This document shows positions 1-33,736 of a DNA stretch of 33,736 nucleotides, piece after piece. Both the position numbers and the translations under genes were made by a program. Within the stretch, counting starts at the first letter, position 1; each line of letters starts with the position of its first letter. The stretch comes from an uncultured Candidatus Poseidoniales archaeon (GTDB lineage Archaea; Thermoplasmatota; Poseidoniia; Poseidoniales; Poseidoniaceae): assembly GCA_905182125.1 (NCBI GenBank), contig CAJJAV010000031.1, positions 1 to 33,736 of the forward strand, given 5' to 3'. Under the pieces are notes generated by a model that was given only the letters and a program-made list of their open reading frames with translations, was not told where the DNA came from and did not search any database.

Positions 1-487
1 TGCTACAGGGCAATTCTGTTCGCTTAACTTCACTCATTGGAAAGAGTGTCAATACCTATCGAATGAAAGTGAACGAAATCCTCGCCATGTTGAAGCAAAC
101 AAATGTTCAACTCGTATCTTTTGAACATGAAATTAGACTTCAGCATGGAGATTCTTTACGACTCTTTGAGGAGATACACCCTAGCATTTTCTCCAAATTA
201 GTTCGAAAGTCGTTGTCAAAGGAAAATCCAGTCCAATCGTGAATTTTAGTGAATACATGCATGATGTGTACACTGCTCTGAAACACATAAGTGAATTGCC
301 GGAACACAGCTTGCGTGATTTCACTTCTGAATTAAATGATCTTGCTGAACTGGCAGAAATGGTTGGGACGACGACTTCTGACAAATTAGAAACCCGTTAC
401 GAGTTCAGTGGTAAATCAACTTCTGTTGAGTCAAAAAATCTCTATCTCTGTGAAGCCAATGAAGTGACTATCACTCCAAGATTTTGA
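1..487 (+). pseudogene. Unidentified gene, 5' end outside window, one frame change
   Basis: The third frame is open from base 3 to a TGA at 240-242. The second frame continues from about 239 (VNFSEYMHDVYTALKHIS) to a TGA at 485-487. Both halves have plausible amino-acid composition (helical, charged), so I read them as one protein with a one-base frame change near 236. No catalytic motif is visible in the roughly 160 residues seen, and I do not recognise the family. The stop is 7 bases before the next start, so it is probably the upstream member of the same operon. The true start lies left of the window. Confidence 0.45.
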
Positions 488-494
488 ACATTCA

Positions 495-1031
495 ATGTCG
501 CAAAAGGAGGTCCTGGTGGAGGTTTTCGAGAAATGGCTCGATAATCAAGGGTATGAGGGGACGAAGTTCGCCGATGAATGTGTCCGTCAAGCGAAGGCTT
601 TGTTTGAATGGGACAACCCAATTGAATGGAGTGAGCACGAAACCAAGTTGAAGGAATTATGGAATGACGTGCCCCCTCAATGCAACGGTGAAATGATTCT
701 AAGCCCCAAAAAGAAAGAGGCTATCGATGAGATGAACAGTAATTACAAAGATACAGGCTGTAATTTCTGTAAGAAGAAAACTCCGAATTCAGTCCGGGCT
801 CAGAATTTGGGTTTGAAGAACGACGAGTTGCAATCGTAAAGCAGACATAGCACCCGATACTGGGGGATTGACAACAACTCTATCGGCAATATGCTTTATC
901 TCTGTCCAAATCACGCATCAGTCATACTCGAAAAGATGCGTTAAGATTGAGATTCAAGTGTAATTCTACTTGGGTCGACATTGAGGAGTTTATCTGAAGA
1001 GCATTTGTCCGACAATCCTGCTCTTGAATGA
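495..1031 (+). pseudogene. HNH-endonuclease-like gene, broken by frame changes
   Basis: ATG at 495 opens 114 clean residues to a TAA at 837. These include a C-x2-C pair (GCNFCKKK, about residue 89) after a helical N-terminal part of about 80 residues. Shortly after, another frame reads NRKADIAPDTGG (about 819-861) and then the 495 frame reads IDNNSIGNMLYLCPNHA (about 867-917). This order, CxxC then KADI.P..GG then N..LCPNH, is the layout of McrA-type HNH nucleases, with the usual KAHI His replaced by Asp as read. The tail continues in other frames to a TGA at 1029-1031. All breaks can be explained by one-base indels. A strong Shine-Dalgarno-like AAGGAGGT lies just inside the ORF (503-510), so a GTG at 516 is an alternative start. 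The nuclease call is from motifs only. Confidence 0.5.
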
Positions 1032-1406
1032 CATTCGTTTTTTCCGTCTGGGAAGGAGTTTGCTTCCGGGGCGAGCGCTTTTCCGAGGAGGCAGTGGAAA
1101 ATCCATCGTTTGGAACAATTATGTTCTCGGACAATTGCTTGAGGACGGGAGAATTGTCAAAGGTCATGCTGAGAAACTGACTAATAACCTCGTGAGTTGG
1201 ATTAAAACACAGGAGCGTTGATTTTTGTGGTTGAGAGTAAGGGCTTCGTCCGGATACCGGATCATAAATTGCAATGGCTACCACTCCTGAGAGACCTCTA
1301 CCGATTTGAAGAAACACTTGTTTCTGGCCCTGGAAGTCACAAAAGACGATTTTCTGATGTCATTTGGACGAAGAAAGCAGCCATCTCTTCCCTAGATCTT
1401 AGATGA
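1028..1406 (+). pseudogene. Small unidentified gene with ATGA overlaps at both ends
   Basis: ATG at 1028 overlaps the preceding stop (ATGA, 1028-1031) and reads MTFVFSVWEGVCFRGERF onward to about 1175. Sense then continues in a second frame (TNNLVSWIKTQE, to 1221) and a third (IFVVESKGFVRIPDHK to LDLR, stop at 1404-1406), whose stop overlaps the ATG at 1403 of the next gene. The two stop/start overlaps are the main reason to treat the three pieces as one real gene of about 125 residues with two frame changes. No family is recognised and no metal or nuclease motif is seen. Its place between the HNH-like gene and the helicase suggests a part in the same system, which is inference. Confidence 0.4.
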
Positions 1407-1424
1407 AGTACAGAGTCACTGATT

Positions 1425-1787
1425 TTGAGCAATTACTCGAATATCCTTGCTAAGGAACGTCAATTAATGGTTGTACCATTGCAAAACTCAGGTGAAACGA
1501 AATACCTCACCCGTGTTGCCGAGTTAGTTCGTACGGTCGGTCACACCTATGAATATTGGAGCAAAGGCAGACCTGCAGTTTCTGCTACGCGTTGGCTGGT
1601 TGAGGATAAGAAAGTTCCAAATTTGGTTATCCCTGCCGAGGTTTTTATTCATTCCATAACCGCGAAGTGCGAACAGCTCATCCCTGGAGACGCAGGGTAT
1701 AATTTGCGAAAGTGCTGCGGAAGAAGTGTGTGTCGCAGTAGCGAAATCAATCCACAAAGACGAATGGGAAAAAGTTCATTTTTCTGA
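1425..1787 (+). pseudogene. Fragment: N-terminal region before the helicase core
   Basis: This frame carries the part after the 16-codon opening at 1403 (MKYRVTDFEQLLEYP). Useful sense runs from about 1448 (LAKERQLMVVPLQNSG) to about 1685, after which frame 1 takes over (TQGIICESAAEEVC). The sequence is mixed helix and strand with no recognised motif. The last 30 codons of this ORF are out of frame with the helicase and are probably not real protein. Confidence 0.4.
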
Positions 1788-2478
1788 ATTTCAACTTGAA
1801 GCAACCCTCAAGATTTTACAATCCAGATACGGCGAGAGTATTTTCAAATCTCAAGTTCTGACTGCGGGAGTTGGCTCAGGAAAGACGATCGCGTTCAGTA
1901 TTGCTACGCTGATTGAAGCTAGAAAGACAATGCTGGATGGAATGAAGAATAACAACTTAAAGTCGACGGGCCTTTTCGTCTACCCCCGTACACAACTCGC
2001 CATTGACCAGCACCAAGAGTTGGAGAAGTTCGCCAAACACATGGACTGCGATTTGAAAATTTGGCTTGAAATGTCTCAAGCGTACCCCAAACCGGAGGGA
2101 CTATCCGTTGCTCAGAGGAGTGCCCGAAGAAGTATTCCGAACATTCCGCACCCTTTGGGCATCATTGTCACGACTTTTGAAACTCTCAAAAGAAGGATGC
2201 GTAGGCCTGAGTTCATGCTAAAGTTGAGCAAACATTTATCGACTATTGTGCTCGATGAAGTGCACCTTTTATCAGGAATTGGTGGCGGAATGTCGAGCCA
2301 ATTGCTTGCTCGACTTGCTGAATCGGTATCCCATTCCGAGAAAGAGGTTCACTGGATTGGTGCGTCTGCTACGATTGCTCGGCCGGATGTTCATGGGAGC
2401 CGACTGTTCGGGATTAAGCCCGACGAAGTGCAAGTCATTGCTCCCCGTGACAAGCGAAATGGTCCAAGCGGGGATTAA
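1726..2478 (+). CDS. SF2 helicase fragment, RecA-like domain 1
   Basis: This 250-residue piece holds the first RecA-like domain of an SF2 DEAD/DEAH helicase: a Q-motif-like FSEFQLEA (residues 19-26), Walker A VGSGKT (49-54), motif Ia YPRTQLAIDQ (86-95), TTFETL (149-154), Walker B DEVH (177-180) and motif III GASAT (212-216). The frame is open upstream to 1660, so the ATG at 1726 is internal to the true protein. From about 2450 sense passes to the second frame (SEMVQAGINHH), so the last few residues of this ORF are spurious. DrmA of DISARM, DpdJ-type and MrfA-type helicases share this layout. I cannot separate them without a search. Confidence 0.7.
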   Translation: MCVAVAKSIHKDEWEKVHFSEFQLEATLKILQSRYGESIFKSQVLTAGVGSGKTIAFSIATLIEARKTMLDGMKNNNLKSTGLFVYPRTQLAIDQHQELEKFAKHMDCDLKIWLEMSQAYPKPEGLSVAQRSARRSIPNIPHPLGIIVTTFETLKRRMRRPEFMLKLSKHLSTIVLDEVHLLSGIGGGMSSQLLARLAESVSHSEKEVHWIGASATIARPDVHGSRLFGIKPDEVQVIAPRDKRNGPSGD

Positions 2479-4438
2479 CCACCACATCTTCATCCGCCCT
2501 ACGCAAGGTATGAGTCTAATTGGTGCCCTGGTCAATGTTACAAGCTTGACTTTGCATCAGCGTCGAGGTGATTTGAGCAAGAGAAGTGATCGCTCAAAGG
2601 ATAAAGTTCGAGAGAAATCCATTGGGTTTGCAGATAATCTGGAAATGTTGGGGAGATGGAACGATGATTTCAGAGAAAATGAACGAACGCAGAATGTAAT
2701 GCGAGGCCGAAAACACCCTGACAAGGGTATAGAAATCAAGAATTGGAACGAGACTCAACGGGAGATACCCTATGCGTGGCGTTTCAACAAGCCTCTTCAA
2801 AGACGTTTGGCGACACACGGAGGCAACGATGAACTTTCTCCGGGGGACTCATTCAAAGATTTAAGGACTCTTTTTGATGGTGATCAGTGCTCCAAAGTCT
2901 GCGATTCATGCCGTAAAGGTGAACAGGTTACATTGGGTGAAATCCAGCCTGACGACTTACTTGAATTGAAGAAAATCGTCTACAGAACCCATCACCGTCA
3001 GGACGATAAAATCAGTGCCCTACAGATTGACTCAAACGAATTTACTTCTGCTAAGGGCGTTGTTATTGGCTCACATGAGTTGTGTCCTTTCCTGCAAGCA
3101 GGTGCATGTTTGTGGTTTCCTGAGCCTGATACAGATGCGATATATGAGATTCCAGGATCAAAGACCTATCCCAAAATTGAATTCGCAGCCGTGGGTCGTT
3201 CTTCTGTGTTCTCCAGCAAAACACCTGGGATAGATTCAGATGATTCCGAGGAAATGAATGGAATCACTAGCAAAATTTTCCGTGATACCACTCAAGCAGT
3301 CTTTGATGTAAAGGGGAGTGGAAAGAGAGTCCCCGTAGATATCATTCTTGCTTCACCTAGCTTGGAAGTCGGTGTGGATTTACCGATGTTAACTGAAAGT
3401 GTTTTGGTGAAATCGGTAAGAAACATTGCCTCATACAGGCAAAAAGTGGGTCGGGTTGGCCGTGAGCGTAATTTAGACACAGTAAATGTGACACTCATGA
3501 CCGAAGCAAGTACTGATTTACACTATTACCGCCAACCTCGTAAATTGGTGAGTGAAGGTCGATTAGAGCCCGTTCCTTTGATGGAGCACAATAAGGCAAT
3601 CATAGCATGTAGCGCATACAGTTCAATTTGGGAATGGCTCGCACTTCACGCAGACCTACCTGAGTACATACAAGGTACAGCGAATGGTACTCTTGGTTCA
3701 CGTTTACAATCCTGCCTTGATGAAATGGCAAAAAATTCCATTCAACTGAGAACTTACATTGGTCGAGCCATAAAAAACCCGAATAAACATACAGATTTGA
3801 TAGATGAAGCGATTCAGCAAGTTCGGGAAGAAATCGGGTTACTTGTTCTACCTGTACAATCGACCTATAATATCCAACCTCCACTCAACTATGAGGCTAA
3901 AGTTATCGATTTATTTGGCATACATGCGCTCAACAAAGTTCACTCGAGTCATTCCATTTCCAAGAGACATGAACAAGTTTCGGGGAACCTCGATAAGATT
4001 GAGTCTCACACGAAATCGATAATCAAATCCCTTCAACAAATCTTGCAAAGTAGCGACAAAATCCCTCCATCTTCGATTCCCAAATTGAACGATTGCGAAG
4101 ACTCTCTCAACAAAAAAGTCCCCGAACTCGAAGAATTGAACTCGACGCTGGAAATACTCAATTCACTGGACATAAGCAGATTTGATGAAGATGGACAAGA
4201 TGCCATTGATGATGGCCAGAAGTACATCAAACGTCTCATACGAGATTTGGAGAAGGTAGATCAAGCAGGGATAAACCAGGACGTCGTCTCTTTGTTTGAT
4301 GACTATACCAATATTGATGCGAAAGACGAACAAGGTCAACAACTTGTAAATGGTGGTTTCTGGAAGAGAGTTTATCTCTCAGATACCATGGATAATCTTT
4401 CTCGAATTCAAATATTAAGAAGAAACAGTGGTTCTTGA
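2246..4438 (+). CDS. SF2 helicase fragment, RecA-like domain 2 and coiled region
   Basis: Real sense starts near 2450; the first 70 codons are a shadow of the previous fragment. It includes a stretch typical of large DUF1998-linked helicases (KSIGFADNLEMLGRWNDDF, about 2615-2670), a lone CDSC pair (about 2899), GSHELCPFLQAGACLW (about 3069-3117), motif V-like ASPSLEVGVDLPM (3351-3389) and motif VI QKVGRVGRE (about 3439-3465) with the Arg pair that contacts ATP. Residues around 580-680 are charged and heptad-like, probably coiled coil. The frame ends at 4438, but sense seems to pass to frame 1 near 4405. This part supplies the second half of the ATP-driven motor. Confidence 0.7.
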   Translation: MCSMKCTFYQELVAECRANCLLDLLNRYPIPRKRFTGLVRLLRLLGRMFMGADCSGLSPTKCKSLLPVTSEMVQAGINHHIFIRPTQGMSLIGALVNVTSLTLHQRRGDLSKRSDRSKDKVREKSIGFADNLEMLGRWNDDFRENERTQNVMRGRKHPDKGIEIKNWNETQREIPYAWRFNKPLQRRLATHGGNDELSPGDSFKDLRTLFDGDQCSKVCDSCRKGEQVTLGEIQPDDLLELKKIVYRTHHRQDDKISALQIDSNEFTSAKGVVIGSHELCPFLQAGACLWFPEPDTDAIYEIPGSKTYPKIEFAAVGRSSVFSSKTPGIDSDDSEEMNGITSKIFRDTTQAVFDVKGSGKRVPVDIILASPSLEVGVDLPMLTESVLVKSVRNIASYRQKVGRVGRERNLDTVNVTLMTEASTDLHYYRQPRKLVSEGRLEPVPLMEHNKAIIACSAYSSIWEWLALHADLPEYIQGTANGTLGSRLQSCLDEMAKNSIQLRTYIGRAIKNPNKHTDLIDEAIQQVREEIGLLVLPVQSTYNIQPPLNYEAKVIDLFGIHALNKVHSSHSISKRHEQVSGNLDKIESHTKSIIKSLQQILQSSDKIPPSSIPKLNDCEDSLNKKVPELEELNSTLEILNSLDISRFDEDGQDAIDDGQKYIKRLIRDLEKVDQAGINQDVVSLFDDYTNIDAKDEQGQQLVNGGFWKRVYLSDTMDNLSRIQILRRNSGS

Positions 4439-4502
4439 GACCAAACACATTGTTTGAGAATCCCTACACTAAGAAAGTCTCTCTTTCGATTAAGAACTTG
4501 GA

Positions 4503-5642
4503 TAACGAAAAGTTCCAACTCCTCTCGATGCTTCTCAAGCAGAGATCACCGTTAACGAGGCAATTTACGCATTTATGCCAGGAACATGGAACCTTCGCAT
4601 CCCCCATCGCAGGTTCAAGGTTGTAACTGGGGAGTTACATCCCTCAGGCGGCAAGGTGATTGCAAAATTAGATCGAATGATCTCAGCAGGAAACAGATTC
4701 CGAAAAGTGCATGATTCTTCTCTACCTGCTCCACCCGGGTGCTCAGAATCACTGCAAATTCATGCACCAACTCATTTGTCAATGATTGAATCTTTTGCCA
4801 AATATGTTGATTTAAACAAAAACACACTTCAGGTTATGGATAAAGATGAATCTACTTTTGACTCTCCTGCGAAGACGACATCAAAGTTACCTAAATCGTT
4901 TCAAAATCGCTGGGCATGGTCTCCTCGAAAAGAAGGAACACCAACGGGAGCCTTCCGATTGCCTAACCATATCTATCAGCTTGAACATGCAAACCATAGT
5001 ACGACCAATCTTGAGCATTCAGAGGGACTTAAGCATCCAATGTGTAATTCCCTGCTTGAATCGATTGAATGGCATGATGAAAAAGAAGTTATCGAGTATA
5101 CCTACGGCCTTTCGCGATCTTTTGGCGCAAAGGGAGATATTAATTTGGCCTACAAAGACCAACACGATCGGAACATAGGTTTTGGAGAAAAATATCATAC
5201 CGAGGCCCTCACTTTCAAACTTAATCCGTCGATTATTAAATCGATTCAACACAAATTCAGAACTGAAATAGAGAATGAATCGGGAATAATCTCACCAAGT
5301 ATCATTAAATCTTTCAAAGCCTTTGTGTTGACGGATACAGATTTCGGTGGCGCTACAATTAATCCTCATACCCTCGAAGGTTTGATTTCTGCAATACTCA
5401 TATTCAATGACTGGAGGAATACAGCAATCACTCCAAAAATCCTGTCAGGATATTTCTGCGATGCGCATGAACGTGCGGCTGATTTTAGGCCAGTAATGGA
5501 ACTTTTCATTCGTACACAAATGAAATTAAATCAGAAATATGATGTTGAAAACCCTGAAAAATTTGACGAAGGCTTAAAGAAACGAAACCTTCCGTCATTC
5601 GACGATTTTGAGGATAGTTTCGCAAGTATGGTACAAATTTGA
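4503..5642 (+). CDS. Fragment: region between helicase and DUF1998 Cys cluster
   Basis: Frame 3 is open from 4503. The ATG at 4575 is internal, since the preceding codons read LDASQAEITVNEAIYAFMPG and fit well. A short bridge in frame 1 (about 4396-4510, RPNTLFENPYTKKVSL) links it to the helicase fragment. The motif EAIYAFMPGTW near the start resembles the opening of DrmB/DUF1998-type proteins, where a similar aromatic-proline-glycine segment follows a short linker; this is a resemblance by eye. No catalytic motif is visible. The end (FEDSFASMVQ) continues in frame 1 as KFDAFLDLWIHR, so the TGA at 5640 comes from a frame change. Confidence 0.5.
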
Positions 5643-7062
5643 CGCATTCCTTGATTTATGGATTCACCGAACAATATTGAGTACATTTGGTGTCGTTGCT
5701 ACGAATTCTATGCAGCAGTTCTGCGGTAGTGATGAGAGTGATGTTGGTTACCTCATCGAAGAAGATTCTTGGATTGGAGACTCCTCTCGTATAGTAATCT
5801 ATGACAAGGCAGAGTTTGGAAACGGGACATGTTCTACTGCACGAGATTATCTTCATATCCCTCATGTTGTGCGAACCTCTAGGTTTTCAGAAAGAAGCAG
5901 GTTACCGACTTCCGATTACCTTTCGACACTTGAAGAAAATTTACTCCAATGTCTTCAGCATCAATCCGATTTAGGCGCACTCGTTCTTCTCGAAGATTCC
6001 AATTTGAGTGCTCTTTCGAGTATGCCAGATTTGGTCAAACATGCGAAGGAAAATTACGAAGTTGGATCTAAAATTTGGGAAAAACTGGGTGTCAAATCGA
6101 TGGATGATGCATGGACACTTCCTTTGCATGTTCGACTTGCAGCACACTACGATTCGCAAAATCTGGGAATGGCTATGGACGACACGACACGTTCGTGCAC
6201 CATCTGTTGGAATGGATGCCCTGAATGTGTAAACCAATTACAAAACACACTTGGTGGTATGTTGGGTCTGAATTTCATTGACAAATATGTTCTTGATGAG
6301 TGGTTCCATGAAGGAGTTGCAAAATCGGATGATTACCAGTACCTTGATTTCAAGGAGATGACAAATGGTAAGGCGAATATGCATTTCGGTAGCCTCAACA
6401 GTCTTCATCTGATTACCCCAGATGGAGACTCAAAGCGCTCTATTTGTTTGCCATGGACAATGGGCTTTCACATGCAAAGAGAATCGCCTTTCAGTACCAG
6501 ACTTATCGTCCGTTCCACCGATCTGAGTGGACTTCGGATTGGTGATGTAACGGGACCTGCTTTGGGTATTGAAGGACATGGTTTTGAACGATTACTTTGG
6601 TTTAATCTCTTGATGACATCACATCTCGATGCAGTCGGAGCCCTTCCTGATGAAAAGAAAGAACTTCAGTTGCTTTATTATGACGCAAGAGATTTACAAC
6701 TCAAGGATATCGGTCTATCCCCTCGCATGTTGGATTCAATGTTGGCAGTGAGCGATGGAGAACCTTTGGAAAAGTTGTCAGATGTTCTCCGTTGGATGTT
6801 ACGTCGAGGGTTTAAGATAACACTGTGCATTGATAAAAATCAAGCTACTCACCTCCCAGTTAGAGGACTTTTTACATCGCATTGCGGATTTCAGTGGTAT
6901 GAACATTCTCCAGAGAACCAGCGAGAAAGGAAGTATGCACAAAAAGATCTTGATCTCACCCATCGCCGTAATGACCGGTTCCGCAAACCTGACGTACTCG
7001 GGTTCCAATCTCAACGACGAAAGTATCAATCATACTACATCAAACAACAAAAGTCAGTATGA
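5608..7062 (+). CDS. DUF1998-like Cys cluster and N-terminal half of a PLD domain
   Basis: Sense begins near 5636. The cluster SCTICWNGCPECV (about 6193-6231; C-x2-C-x3-C-x2-C) followed by a helix is the hallmark of DUF1998, which in MrfA-type helicases and DrmB probably binds a metal. Downstream in the same uninterrupted frame, DARDLQLKDIGLS and then VLRWMLRRGFKITLCID (about 6787-6837) look like the strand-helix-strand that precedes an HKD motif (helix, RG-x-K, hydrophobic strand ending in D). After about 6845 sense moves to frame 2, so the last 70 residues here are spurious. The absence of any stop between the Cys cluster and the PLD-like part indicates fusion. Confidence 0.6.
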   Translation: MRIVSQVWYKFDAFLDLWIHRTILSTFGVVATNSMQQFCGSDESDVGYLIEEDSWIGDSSRIVIYDKAEFGNGTCSTARDYLHIPHVVRTSRFSERSRLPTSDYLSTLEENLLQCLQHQSDLGALVLLEDSNLSALSSMPDLVKHAKENYEVGSKIWEKLGVKSMDDAWTLPLHVRLAAHYDSQNLGMAMDDTTRSCTICWNGCPECVNQLQNTLGGMLGLNFIDKYVLDEWFHEGVAKSDDYQYLDFKEMTNGKANMHFGSLNSLHLITPDGDSKRSICLPWTMGFHMQRESPFSTRLIVRSTDLSGLRIGDVTGPALGIEGHGFERLLWFNLLMTSHLDAVGALPDEKKELQLLYYDARDLQLKDIGLSPRMLDSMLAVSDGEPLEKLSDVLRWMLRRGFKITLCIDKNQATHLPVRGLFTSHCGFQWYEHSPENQRERKYAQKDLDLTHRRNDRFRKPDVLGFQSQRRKYQSYYIKQQKSV

Positions 7063-7486
7063 CTCTGTGTTAGCAAACGCTCGAACCACATTAAAAGACG
7101 CAGAGAGTTTTGATTTCAATTATGTCTCAAAATACTCACCAAATTCCAGAAAGAAACCACAAACAGTGGACAAGCCCATTATGGTGGATGAGATTAGTCA
7201 AATAATACAGGAGCTTGAGAATGGTACATTCGATGATGAAACACGTACCATTGAATTCAAGTCTTGTTACGGCACACCCAATCCCGAAAAGAATATGACC
7301 GAACAAGACACTGCTGATATAGGGTTCAGGGAAGTGGCAAGCATGATAAATTCTGATGGAGGTCATGTCTTGTTTGGAGTCGAAGACAAGACATGGGATG
7401 TAGTTGGAATTGGAAAGGAAATAAGTTCATACGGCACCCGGGACGAGTTCTTAGGCAAAAAAGTCAAAGTAACAGTTCCAGCGTAA
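6830..7486 (+). CDS. PLD-like (HKD variant) plus Schlafen AlbA_2 fragment
   Basis: Sense starts near 6850 (TSQLEDFLHRIADFSG). Residues 36-58 read MHKKIL then VMTGSANLTYSG, the H-x-K and G-S-x-N signature of phospholipase-D superfamily nucleases, followed by NDE (62-64). The usual Asp of HxKxxxxD is Pro here as read. After a linker of about 60 residues, 126-218 form the first part of a Schlafen AlbA_2 domain: TRTIEFKS (138-145), a helix ending REVASMINSDGG (167-178) and HVLFGVEDKTWDVVGIG (179-195). PLD proteins in DISARM and related clusters are presumed nucleases; AlbA_2 domains bind or cut nucleic acid in Schlafens. Both domains sit in one unbroken frame. Confidence 0.65.
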   Translation: MIKIKLLTSQLEDFLHRIADFSGMNILQRTSEKGSMHKKILISPIAVMTGSANLTYSGSNLNDESINHTTSNNKSQYDSVLANARTTLKDAESFDFNYVSKYSPNSRKKPQTVDKPIMVDEISQIIQELENGTFDDETRTIEFKSCYGTPNPEKNMTEQDTADIGFREVASMINSDGGHVLFGVEDKTWDVVGIGKEISSYGTRDEFLGKKVKVTVPA

Positions 7487-7749
7487 TATTGGTCCTGCGT
7501 TTAGTGATTTTGTAAGTTGGCAAATCAGAGAAATAAGCGGAAAAAAGGTCTTAATCATAACATCAAAGCCATCGCTTAACAAAAAAGTTTGGTTCAAACC
7601 TCGTGGAAAGCGCCTCGAGAAAGATGTTTCTGGATCAGAAGCATGGAGCTATGTATAATCGCAGCGAAGACCATGTAAATACATTAAGAGGGATTACTGA
7701 AATTTGTGATTGGGCTGAAGCTCGATTTGGAACGCGAAGTATAGAGTAA
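7479..7749 (+). pseudogene. Fragment: C-terminal end of the AlbA_2 domain
   Basis: Frame 3 from 7479 reads QRNIGPAFSDFVSW, GKKVLIITSKPS and KKVWFKPRGKRLEKD, matching the second half of an AlbA_2 domain (strand, then vli.V..s..kPv.f). A TAA occurs at 7656-7658, but frame 1 continues from 7651 (MYNRSEDHVNTLRGITEICD) to TAA at 7747-7749. Two more frame changes thus separate this tail from the preceding fragment. The last 33 residues are predicted helical. The gene ends 50 bp before the convergent IcmF stop. Confidence 0.45.
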
Positions 7750-7752
7750 AAC

Positions 7753-7769
7753 TGGAAATCCATTTTCCA
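7753..7769. terminator. Small inverted repeat between convergent genes
   Basis: TGGAAA and TTTCCA are perfect 6-base arms around a 5-base loop, in the 50-bp gap between the convergent stops at 7749 and 7800. A short T-run follows on the - strand. It may help end transcription from both sides. The stem is short and AT-rich, so this is a weak call. Confidence 0.25.
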
Positions 7770-7799
7770 AAAATCCCGATGGAAGTTCATTCAACAAAA

Positions 7800-10700
7800 T
7801 CACATGTTCCGTCGGTACTGCCCACCAACGTTGAACAGCGCATCGGTGATTTGACCCAAACTTGCCACCTTCACCGTCTCCATCAATTCTTCAAACACGT
7901 TGCCGCCAAGTCGCGCAACTTCTTGCAGCTGCTTGAGCGCAGCCTCGGTTGCGCCTGCGTCAGAAGTTTGTCGATCGGTGACACGGGCCAAGCAGTTCTC
8001 CTTTTCTTCAGGTGTTGCTCTGGCCAATTCCATCTCGAAATCATCCGCAGCTGATTCATCGAACACCTGAGCGTTCGGATTCTCGAAGGTGTTGACGCCA
8101 ACAATTGGCAGGGTTCCGTCGTGCTTGAGGTGCTCGTAGTACATTGATTCATCCTGAATCTTGCCTCGCTGGTACATGGTTTCCATAGCACCGAGCACGC
8201 CTCCTCGCCGGCTGATCGCCTCAAATTCCTCAAGCACAGCAGCCTCGACCAAGTTGGTCAGTTCATCGACGATGAACGAACCTTGCATTGGGTTCTCAGT
8301 CTTCGTCCAACCGCTTTCCTTGTTGACAATCAGTTGAATCGCCAACGCTCGGCGGACGCTTTCTTCAGTTGGCGTGGTGATGGCTTCATCGTACGCGTTG
8401 GTGTGGAGGGAATTGGCATTGTCTTGAATCGCAAGCAAGGCTTGCAGTGTTGTGCGGATGTCGTTGAAGTCAATCTCTTGGGCGTGGAGGGAGCGTCCAC
8501 TTGTCTGAATGTGATACTTCAATTTCTGAGAGCGCTCGTCAGCCCCGTACATGTCCCGCATGGTGACCGCCCAGATGCGTCGGGCGACTCGGCCAATCAC
8601 GGTGTATTCGGGATCAAGTCCGTTCGAGAAAAAGAACGACAAGTTGGGTGCGAACTTGTTGATGTCCATGCCTCGGCTCCGGTAGTATTCGACGTAGGTG
8701 AAACCGTTGGCTAATGTAAGGGCAAGTTGCGTGATTGGATTGGCGCCAGCCTCAGCGATGTGGTAGCCGGAAATGGAAACCGAGTAGTGATTACGCACAC
8801 CGTGGTCGATGTAGTACTGCTGCACGTCACCCATCAGTTTGAGGGCAAAAGGCGTCGAGAAAATACAGGTGTTCTGCGCTTGGTCTTCCTTGAGAATGTC
8901 TGCCTGAACGGTACCGCGAACGGTTTGCAAGGTGCGGGCCTTGATTTCAGCATAGGTTGCTGCGTCCACAAGTTCGTCACCACGTCGGCCAACTGTTGCC
9001 AATCCGAAGCCATTGTGCCCTTCAGGAAGATCGCCAGCATAAGCGATGTCCAGCAGGTTGAGTGGCTTGCCCTGTTCAGCAAGATGCGCTTCGATTTGCT
9101 GATCGATGGCAGCGTTGAGGAAGAACGCCAGAATCATTGGGGCAGGTCCGTTGATGGTCATGCTGACTGAGGTGTTTGGGTTGCACAGGTCAAACCCAGA
9201 ATAGAGCCGCTTGGCGTCATCAGTTGTTGCGATGCTGACGCCGGAATTTCCGACCTTGCCCCAAATGTCAGGGCGTCGTGCGGGATCTCTTCCATAGAGC
9301 GTGACTGAATCGAAAGCAGTTGAGAGTCGAACATAGTCCTGGCCTTGGCTCAGGTAGTGGAACCGACGGTTGGTCCGTTCGGGTTCGCCTTCACCGGCAA
9401 ACATACGCGCCGACAGTTCGTCGGTTCGCTTGAACGGGAACACGCCAGCGGTGTAAGGGAAATGACCAGGTGCGTTTTCCTTGGTGACGAAGTTGAACAG
9501 TTCACCATCATCAGCAAAGGTCGGCAAGGCCACACGAGGGATGGCAGAATGCGCAAGTGATTCGGTGGTCGTCTGCACGGTGAATGGCTTGCCACGGACG
9601 TGGTAGGTGAATTCTCCAGTTGCGTACTGTTTGGCCAAGTCACGGAACGCTTCGAGGCGGTTTCGTGCCTCTTCCACAGTTTCAAGCAACCCATCAATTT
9701 GTTCCTGCAGGTCAGCAGCGACCTTGTTTGCTCCGCGCTCTTGAGCGTGTGCAGCAGCTGTTTCGAGGTGCTGGCACAAGCGCAATTGTTCAGCAACTGC
9801 GCTGTTTTGAGCATGGTATTCACGAACCTTTGCTGCAATTTCCGAAAGGTAAGCGATGCGCTCTGCAGGGATCACGCCTTTGCGTTCACCCATGGCGTCG
9901 ATTGGCTCAGATGCCTCAAAGTTGAGCATTGCGGCTAACTTTTGCCACAAACGGTCAACCCCACCGTCAGCAAACTGGCTGGCAATGGTAGCGACGACGG
10001 GGAGTTCTTCATCCGCAACATCGAACTTGTTGCGGTTGCGGCGCACCTGTTTGCGAATCGCTCGAAGTGCATCTTCACTGCCTCGCTTTTCGTACTTGTT
10101 GAGGACCACAAGGTCGGCGACATCGAGCATCTCAATCTTCTCAAGTTGGGTGTGTGCGCCGAATTCAGCGGTCATGACGTACAAAGAACGGTCAGCCACT
10201 GAAGTGATGGCGTCGCTGCCTTGGCCGATTCCGCTTGTTTCACAGAAGATGAGGTCGAAGCCTACGGCCTTGGCCACATCGATGGCTCGGTCGAGGTTCG
10301 CACTGATTTCAGAACCAGAGCCTCGGCTGGCAAGGCTGCGCATGTAGAGGTCATTGTTTGAAAGTGAATTCATTCGGATGCGGTCGCCAAGGAGCGCACC
10401 ACCGGTTCGTTTCCGTGTCGGATCGACACACAGCAAGCAGACCTTCTTTCCGGGATTGTCACGTTGAACCCGCAGCATTAATTCGTCCAAGAGGCTTGAT
10501 TTTCCAGCGCCACCCGTTCCGGTGAAACCAATCACTGGTACGTCTTTTGAGGAAGAACGACAGGTCTCAAGCGCCGCTTTGAATACAGCATCGTCAGCAG
10601 ATTCTGACAAGGTGAGCAACAACCCAACCTTGGCCATGTCATCAGGTGTGACCGGGCCATCCAAACTTGCTAGGCGCTCGTTGCTGATCAAGTCGACTTC

Positions 10701-11138
10701 AGCAGCTTGGCCCATCAAGTGTTCAATCATACCCATCAAGCCCATGCTTCGCCCGTCATCAGGCGAATAGATCTTGGAAATACCGGCTTGGTGGAGGGTT
10801 CGAATCTCGGGAGGAGTGATGGTTCCGCCACCGCCGCCAAAGATACGAACATGCTCGCAGCCAGCCTCATCCAACAGTTCACGAATGTAAGAGAAGTACT
10901 CGACGTGACCGCCTTGGTAGGAAGTGAGAGCAACGGCGTGTGCATCTTCTTGAACGGCACAATCGACCACGGCCTTGGCCGACTGATCGTGGCCCAAATG
11001 GATCACTTCAGCGCCCGAGGATTGAATCAAGCGGCGCATGACGTTGATGGCTGCGTCGTGACCGTCAAACAGCGAAGCTGCAGTGATGACACGGACAGGG
11101 CCTGTCGTCGTTTCAAACACAGAGTCTTCATCGGCCAT
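7800..11138 (-). CDS. icmF: Fused isobutyryl-CoA mutase (IcmF), B12-dependent
   Basis: This 1112-residue protein carries an N-terminal cobalamin-binding domain (1-150, FDGHDAA with the lower-ligand His at 27), a MeaB-like G-protein chaperone (P-loop GTGGAGKS at 207-214, CVDPTRKRTGG, base-recognition NKYE at 347-350) and a C-terminal acyl-CoA mutase barrel (about 540-1100). This domain order defines IcmF, which interconverts isobutyryl-CoA and n-butyryl-CoA; some members act on pivalyl- or isovaleryl-CoA. VFPFKRTDE (566-574) has Phe where methylmalonyl-CoA mutases have Tyr in a TRGPYPTMY context, favouring IcmF. Length is close to the known family. Its start is 52 bp after the ABC-F stop, so co-transcription is possible. 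The exact substrate is uncertain. Confidence 0.93.
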   Translation of the reverse strand: MADEDSVFETTTGPVRVITAASLFDGHDAAINVMRRLIQSSGAEVIHLGHDQSAKAVVDCAVQEDAHAVALTSYQGGHVEYFSYIRELLDEAGCEHVRIFGGGGGTITPPEIRTLHQAGISKIYSPDDGRSMGLMGMIEHLMGQAAEVDLISNERLASLDGPVTPDDMAKVGLLLTLSESADDAVFKAALETCRSSSKDVPVIGFTGTGGAGKSSLLDELMLRVQRDNPGKKVCLLCVDPTRKRTGGALLGDRIRMNSLSNNDLYMRSLASRGSGSEISANLDRAIDVAKAVGFDLIFCETSGIGQGSDAITSVADRSLYVMTAEFGAHTQLEKIEMLDVADLVVLNKYEKRGSEDALRAIRKQVRRNRNKFDVADEELPVVATIASQFADGGVDRLWQKLAAMLNFEASEPIDAMGERKGVIPAERIAYLSEIAAKVREYHAQNSAVAEQLRLCQHLETAAAHAQERGANKVAADLQEQIDGLLETVEEARNRLEAFRDLAKQYATGEFTYHVRGKPFTVQTTTESLAHSAIPRVALPTFADDGELFNFVTKENAPGHFPYTAGVFPFKRTDELSARMFAGEGEPERTNRRFHYLSQGQDYVRLSTAFDSVTLYGRDPARRPDIWGKVGNSGVSIATTDDAKRLYSGFDLCNPNTSVSMTINGPAPMILAFFLNAAIDQQIEAHLAEQGKPLNLLDIAYAGDLPEGHNGFGLATVGRRGDELVDAATYAEIKARTLQTVRGTVQADILKEDQAQNTCIFSTPFALKLMGDVQQYYIDHGVRNHYSVSISGYHIAEAGANPITQLALTLANGFTYVEYYRSRGMDINKFAPNLSFFFSNGLDPEYTVIGRVARRIWAVTMRDMYGADERSQKLKYHIQTSGRSLHAQEIDFNDIRTTLQALLAIQDNANSLHTNAYDEAITTPTEESVRRALAIQLIVNKESGWTKTENPMQGSFIVDELTNLVEAAVLEEFEAISRRGGVLGAMETMYQRGKIQDESMYYEHLKHDGTLPIVGVNTFENPNAQVFDESAADDFEMELARATPEEKENCLARVTDRQTSDAGATEAALKQLQEVARLGGNVFEELMETVKVASLGQITDALFNVGGQYRRNM

Positions 11139-15663: not shown

Positions 15664-16440
15664 TTATTCTGCATTTCGTTGCAAACAAGCCACGACGTTT
15701 TCTCGCCAATCTTCCCCATTGTTCTTGTTCGCTCGAGGGCTTGCTGGACTTGGATGCCAACACGTGTCGATGCTTATTTCACGCCCCGAAGGGCTTGTCC
15801 CAGCCCCGGTCTTCGAAGCATTGAGTGCCTTTCTCGCTCGTTGTTCTGCATACTTTCCAATCCCGATGATGCAGGTAATGCCAAGGATGTCAACCACTTC
15901 CCTCAGGTGCTCATCGCAGGCTTCGAGAACCGGAGCAATCACAGCAGCGGGCACGTTGTTGGGTGTGATGTTTTGGCCCCGTTCCCCCAACAGCAACAAC
16001 GGGCAGTGATTGACCACGAACAGGTGCTCAAAGGTGGATTTTGCAGTTCCATAATGGCCTTCCATCAAGTTCCAAATGCGAGTTCCTGAAACTTCTTGTC
16101 GTTCGAGGGCCATGCCTTCAATCGGTCGTTTTGGGTGAGCGTTCGCCGGCGTTTCAAGACTTCGCGCTTCAATTTCAAGGAAGTCGCGTGCGACCACAGT
16201 GGCGCCAAACGGTACGCCTGTCTGCGCCATGCCCCACGGGCCGGGGTTCATGCCGAGCAGCAGCGTTGTAGCGCCGAGGCCGCCCCACTTCTCGAGGTAC
16301 TGCACATGATGAGGCCAAGCGTAGTCAAGAGGGTTCGTTGCGTGTTCAACGCTCGATTTTTTCTCAAGCACCGGAATGGCTGCATCACAGATCGCTGAAA
16401 GGCGTTGAGCTGCCTCAATCAGTTGACCAACAACGTCCAT
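15664..16440 (-). CDS. SMUG1-type uracil-DNA glycosylase
   Basis: 258 residues with the SMUG1 signature: GMNPGPWGMAQTGVPFG (63-79, including the catalytic-site Asn), HPKRPIEGM (102-110), EVSGTRIW (116-123), NHCPLLLLG (144-152) and CWHPSPASPRANK (227-239) with the catalytic His and intercalating loop. SMUG1 (UDG family 3) removes uracil and oxidised pyrimidines such as hydroxymethyluracil from DNA, starting base excision repair. Motif identity with animal SMUG1 is striking. Position 70 is Trp-Gly where the animal enzyme has Phe-Gly. It follows the surface-protein gene by 32 bp and precedes the acyl-CoA synthetase. I am confident in family but not in substrate range. Confidence 0.92.
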   Translation of the reverse strand: MDVVGQLIEAAQRLSAICDAAIPVLEKKSSVEHATNPLDYAWPHHVQYLEKWGGLGATTLLLGMNPGPWGMAQTGVPFGATVVARDFLEIEARSLETPANAHPKRPIEGMALERQEVSGTRIWNLMEGHYGTAKSTFEHLFVVNHCPLLLLGERGQNITPNNVPAAVIAPVLEACDEHLREVVDILGITCIIGIGKYAEQRARKALNASKTGAGTSPSGREISIDTCWHPSPASPRANKNNGEDWRENVVACLQRNAE

Positions 16441-33674: not shown

Positions 33675-33736
33675 GGTGTTAACCTCGCGGTTCCCCTTCT
33701 TGAACTTGGGTGTTCTCACCAGTTGGATGCCCAACT

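Follow-up and report, generated by a model that had tools for sequence, protein, structure and literature searches.

What kind of gene places a superfamily 2 (SF2) helicase, a DUF1998-type zinc-binding region, a PLD nuclease-like segment and a Schlafen AlbA_2 domain one after the other on a single strand? The question is raised by the beginning of a contig from an uncultured Candidatus Poseidoniales archaeon (CAJJAV010000031.1, assembly GCA_905182125.1), which was analyzed here from position 1 to position 33,736 (the window). An initial annotation of this stretch proposed a single-chain DISARM-like defense protein. Our analysis leads to another assignment: the gene is likely to encode the effector of an archaeal Dpd-like restriction island, in a copy broken by frame changes. 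A role in defense appears to be the likeliest reading of the gene.

Dpd-type affinities of the helicase, DUF1998 and PLD regions

The four domains occur in order on the plus strand, up to position 7749. Pfam matches to DEAD, MZB and SLFN_AlbA_2, together with the motifs, bear out this part of the initial annotation beyond chance. RecA1 of the SF2 helicase (positions 1660 to 2478, frame 0) matched DEAD with an E value of 8.6e-17 and contains the motifs GVGSGKT (1867 to 1887), DEVH (2254 to 2265) and GASAT (2359 to 2373). RecA2 and the region that follows it (2228 to 4438, frame 1) contain cysteine residues between 2888 and 3109 and the motif QKVGRVGR (3440 to 3463); Helicase_C was matched in this frame at 6.7e-4 and 20.3 bits, under the cut-off of 23.5. 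The middle region of the gene (4396 to 5642), in which no domain was recognized, is read in frame 0 and then in frame 2 by a codon model, and its part from 4575 to 5642 gave no Pfam match. Next comes the DUF1998/MZB zinc-binding region with a DpdJ-like tail (5578 to 6560, frame 0, the end near 6560 being estimated), which contains a C4 cluster, CTICWNGCPEC, at 6196 to 6228. A DpdK-like PLD domain follows in two halves, the first in frame 0 (6661 to 6850) and the second in frame 1 (6850 to 7100), the latter with the motifs MHKKI (6935) and GSANLT (6977 to 6994). The DUF1998 and PLD calls made at the outset are supported, the former by an MZB match over the cut-off (1.1e-7, frame 0) and the latter by a PLDc_2 match of 25.8 bits (1e-5, frame 1), just under the cut-off of 27. 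The AlbA_2 region (7181 to 7749) starts at an internal ATG (7181) in frame 1, continues by eye in frames 2 and 0 to an end also set by eye, and contains the motif ETRTIEFK (7238); its Pfam match, in frame 1 from 7238 to 7420, reached 5.9e-8 and 33.7 bits, over the cut-off of 25.3.

Comparison with PADLOC models ranked Dpd proteins at the top for the three pieces that were scored. The RecA1 piece gave 87.7 bits with DpdJ, 47.6 with SngC, 29.9 with DruE and 23.9 with the best DrmA model. The RecA2 piece gave 35.0 bits with DpdJ, ~26 with DruE and 18.4 with DrmA, and the PLD piece gave 35.9 bits with DpdK (1.4e-9) versus 17.7 with DrmC. NCBIfam ranked the models in the same way, with 41.9 bits between DpdJ and the RecA2 piece. 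Upstream of RecA1, positions 1425 to 1787 matched the PADLOC DpdJ model at 0.011. Since DpdJ and DpdK rank above the DISARM models and Dpd-like genes are present in the same genome (see below), the sequence indicates that "DISARM-like" is the wrong address. Since the NCBIfam scores lie far below the equivalog cut-offs, the gene is best described as Dpd-like, not as a textbook Dpd member.

An intact DpdJ-like gene was found in G129, a SAT164 metagenome-assembled genome of the same order (PATD01000045.1). It encodes 1,782 residues, with the helicase and a C-terminal canopy region in one chain, in which Pfam finds no MZB; like the window gene, it lies under the NCBIfam cut-off (136.3 versus 800). 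The RecA1 piece is 26% identical to its residues 186 to 450, the RecA2 piece 28% identical to residues 439 to 808 (5e-37) and the MZB/C4 region 20% identical to residues 1467 to 1714 (1e-13), so that the two genes are colinear at residues 186 to 450, 439 to 808 and 1475 to 1722. One base past the stop codon of the G129 gene begins a gene for a PLD protein of 189 residues. This protein was combined with those of Scytonema, Shinella, Paenibacillus and Nostoc into a five-protein DpdK-type profile, from which an Agrobacterium record was left out. The profile matched the second PLD half of the window gene at columns 113 to 156 (2.2e-10 in a search of three sequences) and the first half weakly, in register, at columns 60 to 93 (positions 6748 to 6849), a score that 2 of 2000 shuffles equaled; the adjoining part of the first half (6661 to 6747) was assigned by eye. 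Using hhalign with two DpdK-type proteins, no match was obtained in the first half, and the second half was given a probability of 1.5%.

Partner genes and relatives in the order

The last 4.2 kb of another contig of the same genome (C26) contain open frames for a DGQHR protein (681 residues), an SF2 helicase (537 residues) and a DpdA-like protein (184 residues, cut by the contig end). The DGQHR protein matched TIGR03187 with 72.1 bits, over the cut-off of 58.85, and the specific PADLOC DpdB model weakly (13.5 bits). The DpdA-like protein scored 24.3 bits, far under the equivalog cut-off of 200, and 8.2e-7 with PADLOC DpdA. The DGQHR and DpdA models each found one place on C26, near its end, and a Resolvase-domain protein adjoins the DGQHR gene. 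The GC content is 0.429 in positions 1 to 7750 of the window and 0.41 at the end of C26 versus 0.52 to 0.53 outside. With the RecA2 piece as the query, one YprA match was found in the assembled genome (82% complete). QueC- and TGT-family matches over the cut-offs were found in all four genomes examined, two of which (G002 and G022) fall outside the group of five in which DpdA-like genes occur. We infer that the end of C26 and the beginning of the window belong to one island split by an assembly gap, which is not proven. DpdD to DpdI were not recognized among the window proteins scanned, the genome not having been searched for them, and repeats and tRNAs, sought as marks of island ends, were not found.

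The right edge of the island is formed by an intact host gene on the minus strand (7800 to 11138), mutase-like by eye, which is 90 to 95% identical in G101, G022 and G002, 89% identical over 632 residues in G020 and matched at only 37% in G010. In G022, this gene is separated from a left-flank gene of 214 residues by ~0.6 kb, which holds one small gene, an arrangement that suggests one neighborhood without proving a simple insertion. Near the mutase-like gene of G022, on contig C10 (locus L052, 8349 to 9627), lie genes that by eye are MurD- and FtsW-like; since this contig is archaeal, a chimera is possible. Among the flanking host genes of the window, positions 15664 to 16440 encode a protein of the uracil-DNA-glycosylase superfamily.

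A DpdA profile made of two rows, from the window's own genome and G129, matched 5 of the 318 genomes of the order: these two by construction, G232, and G063 and G216 by a gene end only. The G232 match covers profile positions 14 to 415 of 419 (5.1e-114). Among 389 sampled genomes of the phylum, there were four matches, of which the two from outside the order were weak; those two loci (G553 and G428) were dropped after their open reading frame lists had been read by eye. The DpdA-like protein of G129 is 40% identical to the 184-residue part on C26 and is encoded on the same strand as DpdC-like, helicase and DGQHR genes. PADLOC matches to DpdC (DUF6884) were obtained in G129 and G232, and a DpdC-like gene was seen by eye in G063.

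In G232, which is of the same genus as the window, positions 510 to 14760 of contig C45 (locus L033) carry genes of DGQHR, helicase, DpdA and DpdC type, after which come three proteins that fall into no clear family and a YprA helicase resembling DruE1 (466 bits). This locus looks like a Dpd modification module combined with a Druantia-type effector. The DruE1 match of its helicase places it in another YprA-like type, not among orthologues of the window gene; the same was concluded for a helicase of 2,009 residues in G239 (locus L007), for which DECH_helic ranked above DpdJ. A separate G232 contig (C139, locus L008) encodes an MZB protein and another protein with weak similarity to PD-(D/E)xK. 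Positions 1 to 3851 of G216 contig C33 (L035) are 99.7% identical to L033 5308 to 9158 over 3851 bases, in genomes labeled as different genera, pointing to either a recent transfer or a binning error. On G063 contig C35 (L034), the DpdA end and the DpdC-like gene lie beside a tyrosine-recombinase-like gene, with an adjoining run of small membrane-protein and ATPase-like genes, all by eye; this run might be a mobile or proviral element.

Close relatives of the window gene were not found in searches of genomes and of viral and phage contigs, nor close relatives of its PLD-AlbA_2 piece in plasmids. Against the 389 phylum genomes, this piece had two matches apart from itself, both limited to the AlbA_2 part. 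In the five genomes of the order with DpdA matches, which are incomplete, AlbA_2 was matched twice in the window's own genome, once in the window gene, and was not matched in the other four. The initial annotation was thus right that the added AlbA_2 domain is unusual, at least within what was searched. The second match lies at G000:C11:135301-135492 (35.3 bits).

Regarding gene organization, DpdJ and DpdK were encoded by separate neighbors in all three intact pairs examined, a small set: G129, Scytonema plasmid AP018264 and Paenibacillus plasmid NZ_CP043762, with 1 to 10 bases between the genes. A Nostoc DpdK gene (no DpdJ gene listed within 12 kb on either side in an incomplete gene table) and a Shinella stretch without an annotated feature were not counted. 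The search for intact homologues suggested at the outset retrieved an intact DpdJ but no intact DpdJ-DpdK-AlbA_2 fusion. It gave a divided answer on gene separation, since PLD is a separate gene in the three pairs, whereas helicase and canopy form one gene in G129. The helicase, the MZB protein and the PLD protein are separate genes in a Natronococcus plasmid locus with 7-deazaguanine-type genes, and the MZB protein lies apart from the DruE1-like helicase in G232.

Reading frames, joints and alternative explanations

Nine overlapping stop-to-stop open pieces cover positions 1407 to 7749, which amounts to eight frame changes in 6.3 kb, and further changes lie upstream of 1407. Long open frames tile the remaining 26 kb of the window, where no frame change was seen by eye. 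A codon model trained on the three island genes of C26 agrees with these frames between 1706 and ~6820, with no frame change between 5639 and 6820. The start of the gene was moved from position 1403 of the initial annotation to a probable position near 1225, chosen by eye; residues encoded in frame 2 at 1254 to 1289 resemble the start of the G129 DpdJ, again by eye only. Positions 1225 to 1787 would then encode the N-terminal region, with frame changes by eye near 1380 to 1440. Upstream, a small frame-broken gene on the plus strand (495 to 1220) displays a CxxC and an LCPNH-like stretch. It may encode an HNH or zinc-finger protein of the island, a resemblance seen by eye only; its part from 495 to 839 matched nothing significantly in Pfam and nothing in NCBIfam or PADLOC.

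One open frame, frame 0, runs through both the C4 cluster and the first PLD half with its weak match, and another, frame 1 (6821 to 7486), through the PLD motifs (6935 to 6994) and AlbA_2, without a stop in either case. As written, no stop parts the DpdJ-like part, the DpdK-like PLD and AlbA_2. The single frame initially described from DUF1998 to PLD thus extends to the first PLD half only, and weakly so, since the half with the H-x-K/GSxN motifs is in frame 1; the single frame from PLD to AlbA_2 holds for the Pfam-matched part of the latter, the rest being assigned by eye to frames 2 and 0. A DpdJ-DpdK-AlbA_2 fusion is probable, based on the sequence of one frame-broken copy, and falls short of certain because of the sequence quality, with its many frame changes.

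Several results weigh against the assignment to a Dpd-like effector gene or against the fusion. The gene is broken in the assembly, with no single frame running through it. The codon path stays in frame 0 to 7013, beyond the frame-1 PLD motifs, and assigns no frame to 751 to 1705 and 7419 to 7800. The NCBIfam DpdJ scores of the two helicase pieces (87.7 and 41.9 bits) compare with an equivalog cut-off of 800, and the DpdK score (7.4e-9; 35.4 bits for half a domain) with a cut-off of 100. In a helicase tree of seven rows, which has long branches and includes neither DISARM nor MrfA, the gene falls outside the bacterial Dpd pair and its deep placement is open. The G129 PLD protein gave no NCBIfam or PADLOC match, scored below the Pfam PLDc_2 cut-off and matched the window PLD piece weakly (0.003). 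The DpdA model also matched 4 of 14 control genomes, under the cut-off, and the DGQHR model matched 4 of 14, one of them over the cut-off. The order includes 35 genomes rated at 90% completeness or more and 5% contamination or less, and the DpdA profile matched none of them. The relative orientation of the flanking genes is reversed in G022, which does not show contiguity between C26 and the window. The predicted structure, with a mean predicted local distance difference test score of 33, was uninformative and was not used.

The frame changes bear on two other explanations. DpdJ, DpdK and AlbA_2 could be three neighboring genes between which sequence errors erased the stops, as would befit the separate genes of G129, Scytonema and Paenibacillus, the abundance of frame errors, the ATG at 7181, which suits the start of an AlbA_2 gene, and the weak recognition of the first PLD half. 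This explanation is rather unlikely in our view, since each joint is crossed by an open frame and the codon path is free of frame changes from 5639 to 6820, so that separate genes would need compensating changes. It is also doubtful that the gene is a true pseudogene of a decaying island, the protein not being made. The concentration of frame changes in this stretch and in the small upstream gene, set against the 26 kb in which none was seen, would be in keeping with decay, but open pieces overlap along the full length of the stretch, with no nonsense change. The helicase, PLD and C4 motifs are kept, the frames on C26 are open and, in our judgment, indels unaccompanied by nonsense changes are better explained by errors of reads or assembly close to the end of a contig.

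Two further explanations concern the identity of the system. A single-chain DISARM-like protein would account for the order of the activities, which is that of drmA-drmB-drmC, and for weak DrmA and DrmC matches. It is nevertheless very improbable, given the higher scores of the Dpd models, the Dpd-like genes in the genome and the result that none of the nine scanned window proteins to the right of the gene belongs to a methyltransferase family, the left side lying beyond the contig end. Hardly more credible is a helicase of the Druantia III or ARMADA type with a fused C-terminal nuclease: such helicases bear fused nuclease domains, according to the available text of a survey of the YprA family (PMC12458937), and DruE models match weakly, but DruE scores below DpdJ on both RecA pieces and the PLD piece matches DpdK. 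Thus, we retain the effector gene of a Dpd-like island as the likely identity of the stretch. That living cells produce it as an intact single chain, with a Dpd-type helicase, a built-in PLD nuclease and a Schlafen RNase acting as a cell-stopping arm, so that base-mark surveillance, DNA restriction and abortive infection would be combined in one molecule, is a more demanding proposal that we consider decidedly improbable.

Proposed mechanism and comparison with known systems

In the mechanism that we envision, the DGQHR, helicase and DpdA-like proteins would use preQ0 from the host QueC pathway to put a 7-deazaguanine base in the place of guanine in host DNA, marking self from non-self. The DpdJ-like helicase, a YprA-family member, would load on DNA without the mark, translocate with its zinc canopy and pass the DNA to the joined DpdK-like PLD nuclease for cutting. 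The C-terminal AlbA_2 domain might help to hold nucleic acid or act as a second arm, as a Schlafen-type RNase. Both roles stay possible because the literature, in the text available, describes AlbA_2 as a tRNA-cleaving defense RNase (PMC12839542) and as a DNA-binding domain (PMC6299218). In the YprA survey, Dpd helicases are reported to have a C-terminal ALBA-like domain; neither "Schlafen" nor "AlbA_2" occurs in its available text, and its tables may still list similar proteins (PMC12458937).

These results indicate the presence of Dpd-like 7-deazaguanine defense islands in what is taken to be a planktonic marine archaeal order, for which we found no announcement among the titles and abstract openings listed in literature searches, two of which were limited to 15 of 45 and 10 of 39 papers. 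Genomes of the order share one modification module with differing effectors: separate DpdJ and PLD proteins in G129, joined DpdJ-DpdK-AlbA_2 in the window and, in G232, a helicase of the Druantia type. According to the available part of a 2025 review, Dpd restriction has not been further explored (PMC12707154). If the fusion is true, a DNA-cutting step and a possible RNA-cutting step would be located on the helicase itself, and this restriction step could be studied with one purified protein.

The window gene resembles Dpd (NF041067 and NF041068) in the first rank of the helicase and PLD profiles, in the order of DpdJ and then DpdK and in the DpdA-like and DGQHR genes of the same genome; it differs in scores under the equivalog cut-offs, in the joining of DpdJ and DpdK as written and in the added AlbA_2. 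The G129 island, from the same order of archaea, shares the colinear DpdJ and the DGQHR-helicase-DpdA gene order, whereas its DpdJ and PLD genes are separate, divergent from the modification genes and without an AlbA_2 match in the genome. BRIGADE likewise combines a YprA helicase and a PLD nuclease with archaeal 7-deazaguanine genes, but usually contains two YprA helicases and is reported only from halophilic archaea in the available text of the survey (PMC12458937); one YprA match was obtained in the assembled genome here, which is 82% complete. DISARM has the helicase, DUF1998 and PLD activities in the same order but is characterized by separate genes and a methylase, and its models score lower. 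According to the same text, YprA-family proteins usually have helicase and DUF1998 in one chain, DISARM being the consistent exception and splits elsewhere being sporadic (PMC12458937). The G129 homologue, a single frame of 1,782 residues, does not display the DISARM split, and the window copy is broken between helicase and MZB. Schlafen-type defense proteins have the AlbA_2 domain in common with the window gene, but the described forms, as far as the available texts extend, are fusions with a minimal kinase plus a winged helix-turn-helix, with Argonaute or with SIR2, and none is joined to a YprA helicase and PLD (PMC12839542, PMC6299218). The window gene as written appears to vary a known theme, not to represent a new kind of system: its single chain links the helicase to a domain that cuts DNA and to one that may cut RNA.

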